Below, one piece after another: positions 9,322 through 54,387 of a DNA stretch of 64,000 nt; positions within the stretch are counted from its first letter, which is position 1; each line of letters begins with the position of its first letter. Source of the stretch: Bugula neritina (taxonomy: Eukaryota; Bryozoa; Gymnolaemata; Cheilostomatida; Bugulidae). The notes beneath the pieces are model-generated. The model was not told the origin of the DNA. It saw only the letters and a program-made list of their open reading frames with translations, and did no database searches. The translations under genes were made by a program, and so were the position numbers. The stretch spans positions 9,450,973-9,514,972 of the forward strand of contig OZ037770.1 of assembly GCA_964035545.1 (NCBI GenBank). Direction: 5' to 3'.

Positions 9322-10095
9322 TCATTGTTTTTTATGTTTTTTACCTTTAATTTTCTTTTTCACCTTGACCTTAGTTCGCCCACCTTTTTTATCATTAGTC
9401 GTTCTTATAACATTTTTACTTGGTTTATAGTTCATTTTGGTTGTTGTAACGTTTTTGTCAGACATTTGAGCTACCGCTTCAGCAGTTGGATTAATCTTGT
9501 TTCCAGAAGGTCTATCTTTTGCTTCGCCATACTGTTTTTGCTTAGTTTTGAGTTTTCTCATAAACCGGTTTAAGGCACCAGAAACATTTACTAAATCTAC
9601 TGTGTTCTTGCTTAGAGGTTTCACTCTCTTATAATTGTTTCTTGATGCCTTTTGACCGAGTAGTTTTACAGCTGCAGCCATTTTATTAGCAGATGGAGCA
9701 GATTTTGTCTTAGTATCACCTGCATGATGTGCAACTCTTTTGCTCTGACCAAACTTTTTCATTTTTGATCCTGTTTTATTTAGTGAAGACAAATTTTCTG
9801 TATTTACTTCACTGGCTTCCCGAAAATTATTTTCTTGGTTGCTGTTTATGCTATTTTCATCATTTTCTTCTTCCTTTATATTTGACATGCTATCTGTGTT
9901 TGTTTGTAAATCACCCATTTGCTTGCTGCTGGTTTTACTCCTTATATCTGATTTACTCTTTAGATATGATTTACTCTTTAGATCTGATTTACTCTTTAGA
10001 TCTGATTTACTCTTTAGATCTGATTTACTCTTTAGATCTGCTGATATGCTTTTCTTTTTACGAAACCGTATATAGCCAAGAGTTGAAATCCCGAC
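9322..10095 (-). CDS. Gene B exon 31: basic cytoplasmic tail and stop
   Basis: 774 nt to the stop codon. Begins [16 protein letters not shown], then an in-frame 18-bp repeat giving D-L-K-S-K-S units (about 9955-10040), then a Lys/Ser/Asn-rich, low-complexity tail that ends [16 protein letters not shown]. No kinase, SH2 or PTB-type motif was seen. The open frame runs without an ATG requirement from the acceptor at 10096, so the tail is longer than the internal Met at 9918 would suggest. Confidence 0.8.
   Translation of the reverse strand, partial: VGISTLGYIRFRKKKSISADLKSKSDLKSKSDLKSKSDLKSKSYLKSKSDIRSKTSSKQMGDLQTNTDSMSNIKEEENDENSINSNQENNFREASEVNTENLSSLNKTGSKMKKFGQSKRVAHHAGDTKTKSAPSANKMAAAVKLLGQKASRNNYKRVKPLSKNTVDLVNVSGALNRFMRKLKTKQKQYGEAKDRPSGNKINPTAEAVAQMSDKNVTTTKMNYKPSKNVIRTTNDKKGGRTKVKVKKKIKGKKHKKQ

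Positions 10096-54387: not shown

Follow-up and report, generated by a model that had tools for sequence, protein, structure and literature searches.

A predicted kinase-less ErbB-like receptor with tandem L2/CR2 modules, encoded in a chromosome 6 gene cluster of Bugula neritina

The window analysed here is a stretch of 64,000 nucleotides from Bugula neritina chromosome 6 (9,450,973-9,514,972); positions that are negative or larger than 64000 are window coordinates extended outwards. It contains a receptor gene on the minus strand that runs from an ATG at 54387 to a TGA ending at 9322, here called the window gene (Table 1). Hand curation resulted in 31 exons and 30 GT-AG introns, with a coding sequence of 6198 nt that is divisible by three, encodes 2065 amino acids and has its terminal stop as the sole one. 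A preliminary description of this DNA had proposed 31 in-phase exons totalling an exact multiple of three and 2065 residues, and our curation arrived at the same count and length; we regard the receptor observation as confirmed, the gene model indicating a real gene. Two other models were discarded, namely a first one of 31 exons and 2040 amino acids with a 51-nt exon 4, which was replaced by a 126-nt exon conserved in three paralogs, and the 22-exon model of an automatic gene finder, which missed several exons. Transposable-element ORFs are found in the introns of the window gene and next to the gene, in stretches within 42960-50400, 18000-28900, 35750-38411 and 56000-60400. Named by eye according to ORF content, they include two gypsy-like stretches of high GC content on the plus strand as well as a LINE-like ORF plus a BEL/Pao-like element on the minus strand.

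Table 1. Exons of the window gene and paralogous sequences within the window
Feature	Position	Strand	Basis or remark
Paralog PB, 3' end: part of module 5, module 6, stalk, tail ORF 7071-7700	405-7700	+	convergent with window gene
Exon 31, end of membrane span and Lys-rich cytoplasmic tail, KSKSDL-type repeat run	9322-10095	-	curated model, tail composition
Exon 30, stalk and most of sole membrane span	10859-11034	-	hydropathy peak within aa 1787-1819
Exon 29, stalk	11407-11532	-	conserved in paralogs
Exon 28, module 3: membrane-proximal-type exon	12230-12402	-	curated model
Exon 27, module 3: CR4	12664-12797	-	curated model
Exon 26, module 3: CR4	13495-13679	-	curated model
Exon 25, module 3: L4 end	13855-14042	-	L4 alone 32.9 bits
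Exon 24, module 3: L4	14140-14353	-	curated model
Exon 23, module 3: domain II end and L4 start	15392-15604	-	curated model
Exon 22, module 2: membrane-proximal-type exon	15767-15939	-	curated model
Exon 21, module 2: CR3	16663-16793	-	curated model
Exon 20, module 2: CR3	17158-17342	-	curated model
Exon 19, module 2: L3 end	17537-17724	-	L3 alone 37.1 bits
Exon 18, module 2: L3	25495-25708	-	curated model
Exon 17, module 2: domain II end and L3 start	29631-29843	-	curated model
Exon 16, module 1: membrane-proximal-type exon	30004-30176	-	no significant PDB match
Exon 15, module 1: CR2	31184-31314	-	curated model
Exon 14, module 1: CR2 (domain IV)	31866-32050	-	curated model
Exon 13, module 1: L2 end	32295-32485	-	L2 alone 33.9 bits
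Exon 12, module 1: L2	33030-33243	-	curated model
Exon 11, module 1: domain II end and L2 start	33995-34207	-	curated model
Exon 10, DS2 second half	34781-35056	-	curated model
Exon 9, DS2 first half	38591-38797	-	curated model
Exon 8, DS1 second half	38987-39235	-	curated model
Exon 7, inserted DS1 first half	39378-39557	-	no Pfam or significant PDB match
Exon 6, CR1 module with shortened dimerisation arm	40092-40209	-	curated model, comparison with chromosome 2 relatives and gene Y
Exon 5, CR1 (domain II) first part, ErbB-like in detail	42150-42334	-	aligned with Drosophila EGFR, ErbB4
Exon 4, L1 last part	42682-42807	-	conserved in three paralogs
Exon 3, L1 second part	51279-51425	-	curated model
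Exon 2, L1 first part	53793-54032	-	L1 alone 27.0 bits, cut-off 21.8
Exon 1, signal peptide, 25 residues	54312-54387	-	25/25 residues identical in two paralogs
Further paralog, apparently a gene fragment, two exons	55084-56318	+	extra exon match 70059-70298, outside window

The window gene is one member of a gene family, and the paralogs inside the window had been overlooked earlier. Within the 231 kb covered when flanks are included, the chromosome 6 cluster contains PA (minus strand, one module), PB (plus, six modules), the window gene (minus, three), PE (plus, one) and PG (minus, four), together with fragments; these module counts describe one haplotype assembly of one individual. PE (window coordinates 79245-94269) is intact, and all of its 19 exons (3909 nt) are matched in the window gene, 16 with identical length and three shorter by 9, 18 and 54 nt. 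PG is also intact, with 37 exons, 7266 nt, 2421 amino acids and only the final stop, and PB has an uninterrupted frame across 43 joined exons, from CR1 to the stalk. All 15 L-CR modules of the five genes are free of stops. The other four genes contribute 12 modules with 72 exons, of which 65 have a length that also occurs at the corresponding place in the window gene and seven differ by multiples of three. The module mapping took the nearest in-frame AG or GT within 21 bases, so that the procedure itself accounts in part for the splice sites and for length differences that keep the frame; the 18- and 54-nt differences of PE were found without such a shift. PA shows two tail-like exon matches approximately 5 kb apart (-57456 to -56809 and -52732 to -52094), one of them with a net charge of only +1, which suggests alternative tails or the remnant of a second gene.

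Given the transposable-element ORFs in the introns and an opposite-strand gene fragment within the same window, the locus could be taken for a decaying or mis-joined array of ErbB-like exons rather than one working gene. We consider this highly improbable, since the 31 exons of the window gene are open and in phase, PE and PG are intact from start to stop, and PB stays open across its joined exons. Moreover, the exon-length differences between the window gene and PE are multiples of three, and overall dN/dS is below 1.

The analysis shows the predicted product to be a type I membrane protein with an ErbB-type ectodomain and a Lys-rich tail without a kinase. Its ectodomain consists of one ErbB L1/CR1 head followed by three tandem six-exon L2/CR2 modules, and domains I to IV are present in the L1-CR1-L2-CR2 order of ErbB ectodomains. 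In a Pfam scan of the 2040-aa first model, Furin-like (E 7.9e-28, seven stretches), Recep_L_domain (E 5.7e-26, four stretches) and GF_recep_IV (E 8.2e-7, three stretches) were matched, the latter with 29.3 bits just below its cut-off of 29.5. Tested singly, each of the four L domains exceeded the Pfam cut-off of 21.8 bits (Table 1). The best PDB match was Drosophila EGFR (3ltf, E 9.3e-12); in first-model numbering, residues 167-262 correspond to EGFR residues 161-255, and residues 585-881, covering L2 and domain IV, to 283-576. The ErbB-like character claimed in the preliminary description is supported by the CR1 cysteine pattern, the EGFR alignment on both sides of the insert described below, and the Drosophila EGFR structure. 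Its claim of four L/Cys-rich pairs holds for the four L domains, all above cut-off, but the pairs are unequal, being one L1/CR1 head and three L2/CR2 copies.

The three modules of the window gene are 67-76% identical to each other (259, 247 and 280 of 368 positions), and each ends in a short membrane-proximal-type exon. An assignment of these exons to FnIII was dropped for lack of a significant Pfam or PDB match. No FnIII was found after L2, where the best PDB match of the membrane-proximal region had an E value of 0.1, and a distant fold resemblance is still conceivable; Pfam matches of this region below cut-off were to bacterial secretion-tail domains (Por_Secre_tail, E 0.0093; CHU_C, E 0.048). 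Hydrophobic stretches above threshold are restricted to the signal peptide and one span. When the front part of the first model (945 aa) was searched against a protein database, no match was obtained.

The tail comprises 257 amino acids, 51 of them Lys, and has a net charge of +40; together with the repeat run (Table 1), this agrees with the basic, repeat-containing tail described before. Searched against the genome, it matched five places at E values up to 0.1, all on chromosome 6, and the chromosome 6 tails contain only one to five Tyr. The tail has no Pfam match, a simple scan across 231 kb around the window gene revealed no HRD-type kinase motif, and no PF07714 match lies on chromosome 6 among the matches listed. 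All three results uphold the kinase-less nature of the protein. That the exons are instead divided between separate genes, or spliced to a kinase exon, is unlikely, because PE and PG keep the exon order from signal peptide to tail.

CR1 carries an insert of approximately 300 residues, encoded by exons 7-10, in which one domain occurs twice in diverged form, as DS1 and DS2, a pair overlooked in the earlier description. The DS domains gave no significant Pfam or PDB match: a single one of seven DS sequences matched anything in Pfam (an unrelated ribosomal family, E 0.15), and the best PDB match was a glycosyl hydrolase (E 0.94). An identification as F5/8 type C (discoidin, galactose-binding-like) or lectin domains was rejected, as no such profile matched. 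Across the genome, DS2 found 14 exon matches at E values up to 0.1, ten in the five chromosome 6 genes and four in two chromosome 2 genes at 31.76-31.78 Mb; the chromosome 2 genes around 30.6 Mb gave weaker DS-like matches when searched alone. Outside the genome, a DS profile retrieved only three short ORFs (P0001, P0002 and P0003), all from public metagenome contigs and matching parts of the DS domains; P0001 shares 87% identity with DS1 across 56% of the query. Since these ORFs are not identical to the chromosome 6 genes, they may represent Bugula alleles, other paralogs or a related species.

The insert is located directly after the cysteine module that carries the dimerisation arm. A first EGFR alignment had suggested a position within the arm; this was abandoned because comparison with the chromosome 2 relatives and with the kinase-bearing ErbB gene Y, both described below, puts the insert behind the arm module. 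The arm of the window protein has 15 residues between CVSDC and CVSQC, compared with 26 in Y and 30 in the chromosome 2 relative B1, and is short of a full-length ErbB dimerisation arm in domain II.

Relationships among the modules point to recombination between modules. In a tree of all 15 modules, first modules group together (97/96), as do last modules (100/100), with the others between them; six of the 12 inner branches are well supported and three are open, and the single module of PA falls with the last modules. In PE, the intron that precedes the exon designated Ra agrees with PG module 1 at 242 of 244 aligned positions, compared with 119 of 178 for PG module 4. For the intron after this exon, the match to PG module 4 is 290/300 in the first and 288/300 in the last 300 bases, whereas PG module 1 reaches 95/171 and 170/305. 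Within Ra, modules 1 and 4 of PG are nearly equidistant (174/184 and 172/184). As the two flanking introns match different PG modules, the edge of a crossover or conversion lies within or beside the Ra exon. Judging from these alignments, recombination or conversion joined a first module to a last module with the frame kept, and either direction is possible.

The chromosome 6 family is under purifying selection overall. The dN/dS ratio was 0.26 between PE and PG (792 codons) and 0.54 between the window gene and PE (1287 codons), ranged from 0.31 to 0.41 in three regions compared with PB, and from 0.34 to 0.45 between the modules of the window gene. By domain, the comparison of the window gene with PE yielded 1.03 for L1 (25.8 non-synonymous and 7.2 synonymous changes), 2.99 for CR1 (11 and 1), 0.44 for DS, 0.40 for L2, 0.28 from the last CR to the membrane span, and 1.81 for the tail, the latter with small counts (14 and 2). 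Non-synonymous changes were more frequent in L1 and CR1 (37/623 sites) than in DS and L2 (26/1180; Fisher p = 7e-5), while synonymous rates did not differ (p = 1.0) and the ratio of non-synonymous to synonymous counts did (p = 0.03); these p values are optimistic, because the regions were chosen after the per-domain values were known. The excess of change in the head concerns one gene pair with few synonymous changes and could reflect relaxed constraint.

More distant relatives of the family exist elsewhere in the genome. A search with one module gave at least 111 exon matches, those listed being located at 9.401-9.597 Mb on chromosome 6 and at 30.57-30.67 and 31.76-31.78 Mb on chromosome 2, with one weak match at 27.00 Mb on chromosome 2. 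The relatives around 30.6 Mb have the same plan with one module, a longer arm and approximately 22-45% identity in matched exons. In the two chromosome 2 pieces read, of approximately 22 kb each, no HRD motif was present, and these relatives are kinase-less as far as read. One of them contains a cytoplasmic-type tail ORF of 336 residues (C2:30605204-30606211) that is rich in Lys and has Tyr motifs in clusters (YYDV, YYSDI, YDVI and YYDY), unlike the Tyr-poor tails on chromosome 6. Approximately 23-84 kb upstream of the closest chromosome 2 relatives at 31.76 Mb, three tyrosine-kinase exon matches were observed (C2:31674695-31735571).

Gene Y (chromosome 1, 20.384-20.396 Mb) is a kinase-bearing ErbB with HRDLAARN and DFG motifs, a 26-residue arm and no DS insert. 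Two canonical EGFR-like loci, on chromosomes 5 and 4, are likewise followed by kinase matches at a distance of a few kb. Gene X (chromosome 2, 26.997-27.004 Mb) is ErbB-like with a full arm; no kinase motif occurred among its listed ORFs of at least 45 aa over approximately 15 kb downstream of the last Cys-rich exon, and its kinase may be absent too. A tree with nine rows was computed from parts of CR1 and domain IV, and in it the DS-bearing receptors of chromosomes 6 and 2 formed one clade (100/99) beside the Bugula ErbBs; the tree is small, the parts had been assembled by eye, and the program issued a long-branch warning. This tree and the EGFR structure match support common descent of the ectodomain with the ErbB/EGFR family. 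An extra cysteine segment in domain IV is common to Y, X and the chromosome 6 family and absent from the two EGFRs in the alignment, which suggests descent from a Y-like ErbB after loss of the kinase.

The conserved L1-CR1-L2-CR2 order and the presence of kinase-bearing ErbBs in the same genome would suit a ligand trap or a kinase-less co-receptor that binds an EGF- or neuregulin-like ligand via L1 and L2 and sequesters it or pairs with the animal's own ErbBs. Precedents come from nematodes: HPA-1 and HPA-2 of C. elegans are reported to act in the EGF pathway, with antagonism as the most likely role (PMC3227454), and binding of insulin-like peptides has been proposed for IRLD proteins (PMC9262388). 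The Tyr-rich, kinase-less tail ORF of one chromosome 2 relative is also what a docking co-receptor might have, but the few Tyr of the chromosome 6 tails are not. Furthermore, the L1 stretch tried is too diverged for plain sequence matching to EGFR (-3.3 bits), the arm used for ErbB pairing is shortened, and two new domains, a variable module number, and a conserved membrane anchor and tail exceed the needs of a trap. We regard a trap or co-receptor function as possible but rather unlikely, and as the main rival of the reading favoured below.

We tentatively favour, with somewhat less than even confidence and drawing on pattern only, a fast-evolving surface recognition or adhesion receptor. Recombination of modules, together with a head that changed faster than DS and L2 between two recent duplicates, is more in keeping with such a receptor than with a conserved regulator in EGF signalling, although a cluster of duplicates is equally expected from dosage or redundancy. 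The L/CR head and the ladder of modules would form a binding face and a rod that extends from the cell surface and varies in length, and recombination between modules would alter both rod length and binding surfaces. With no kinase of its own and probably no pairing through the ErbB arm, the receptor would have to obtain a signal from partners or from its basic tail, which might bind membrane lipid or cytoplasmic proteins. A purely structural adhesion or matrix receptor, with the L/CR ladder as spacer, the DS pair as the part that attaches to matrix or glycan, and neither signalling nor recognition of variable partners, would be consistent with the long modular ectodomain, the presence of 35 N-glycosylation sequons within residues 1-1780, and the slower change of DS compared with the head. 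We consider it unlikely, given that faster change of the head is not expected of a structural protein, and a lectin role is merely a guess for domains that have no known homologue by profile.

The window protein resembles ErbB/EGFR receptor tyrosine kinases in the sequence of domains I to IV and the CR1 cysteine pattern, and departs from them by the missing kinase, the shortened arm, the inserted DS pair, the presence of three L2/CR2 modules where ErbBs have one, and the Lys-rich tail. A metazoan survey reports an expansion of EGFRs in bryozoans with highly similar overall architecture and considered only sequences containing a tyrosine kinase (PMC4914847), so that kinase-less receptors would have been left out. 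In the same survey, ErbB3-type kinase-impaired receptors are also reported from planarian and limpet (PMC4914847); they are comparable as divergent ErbBs that cannot or may not phosphorylate, but retain the kinase domain in whose place the window protein has its Lys-rich tail. The nematode IRLD family, including HPA-1 and HPA-2, shares with the window protein receptor L domains, the absence of a kinase and the organisation as a gene family, and is proposed to modulate insulin or EGF signalling (PMC9262388, PMC3227454). HPA-1 and HPA-2 are described there as extracellular; by this description they differ from the window protein, which is membrane-bound and has CR1, domain IV, the insert and tandem modules.

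The insect protein Sdr is an insulin-receptor decoy, an ectodomain without kinase that binds ligand without signalling. DAF-2B of C. elegans is reported to act in the same way (PMC10358897). Compared with these decoys, the window protein is ErbB-type with domain IV, membrane-anchored, and without a significant FnIII match.

Bryozoans are sessile and colonial, as are the hosts of the allorecognition receptors Alr in Hydractinia and BHF/fester in Botryllus. Alr and BHF/fester belong to domain families other than those of the window protein, and the Alr recognition genes are highly polymorphic. High polymorphism is likewise described for the Botryllus recognition gene BHF, and historecognition is reported in bryozoans (PMC12018476). 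Among the titles and abstract openings listed from the open-access literature, we found no description of the chromosome 6 genes or of any named bryozoan allorecognition gene. It is conceivable, if distinctly unlikely, that the cluster is a self/non-self system of bryozoans, in which ErbB-derived receptors that lost the kinase vary between individuals in module number and head through intragenic recombination and act in colony fusion or in recognition of microbes or symbionts. The cluster provides candidate genes with which recognition can be tested in a phylum of colonial animals. If our preferred reading as a recognition or adhesion receptor is true, an ErbB ectodomain was freed from its kinase and expanded by whole L2/CR2 modules and new domains into a recombining family of surface receptors. 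Kinase-less ErbB-like receptors may be overlooked elsewhere as well, considering that the survey required a kinase (PMC4914847).

Many kinase-domain matches were also obtained on small unplaced contigs (for example C159:33222-33977, C28:18549-19265 and C94:80900-81655), where they extend across several in-frame TAA and TAG codons and almost never TGA. This usage corresponds to the ciliate nuclear code, in which TAA and TAG are read as Gln, and the assembly may therefore include contigs of an associated ciliate.
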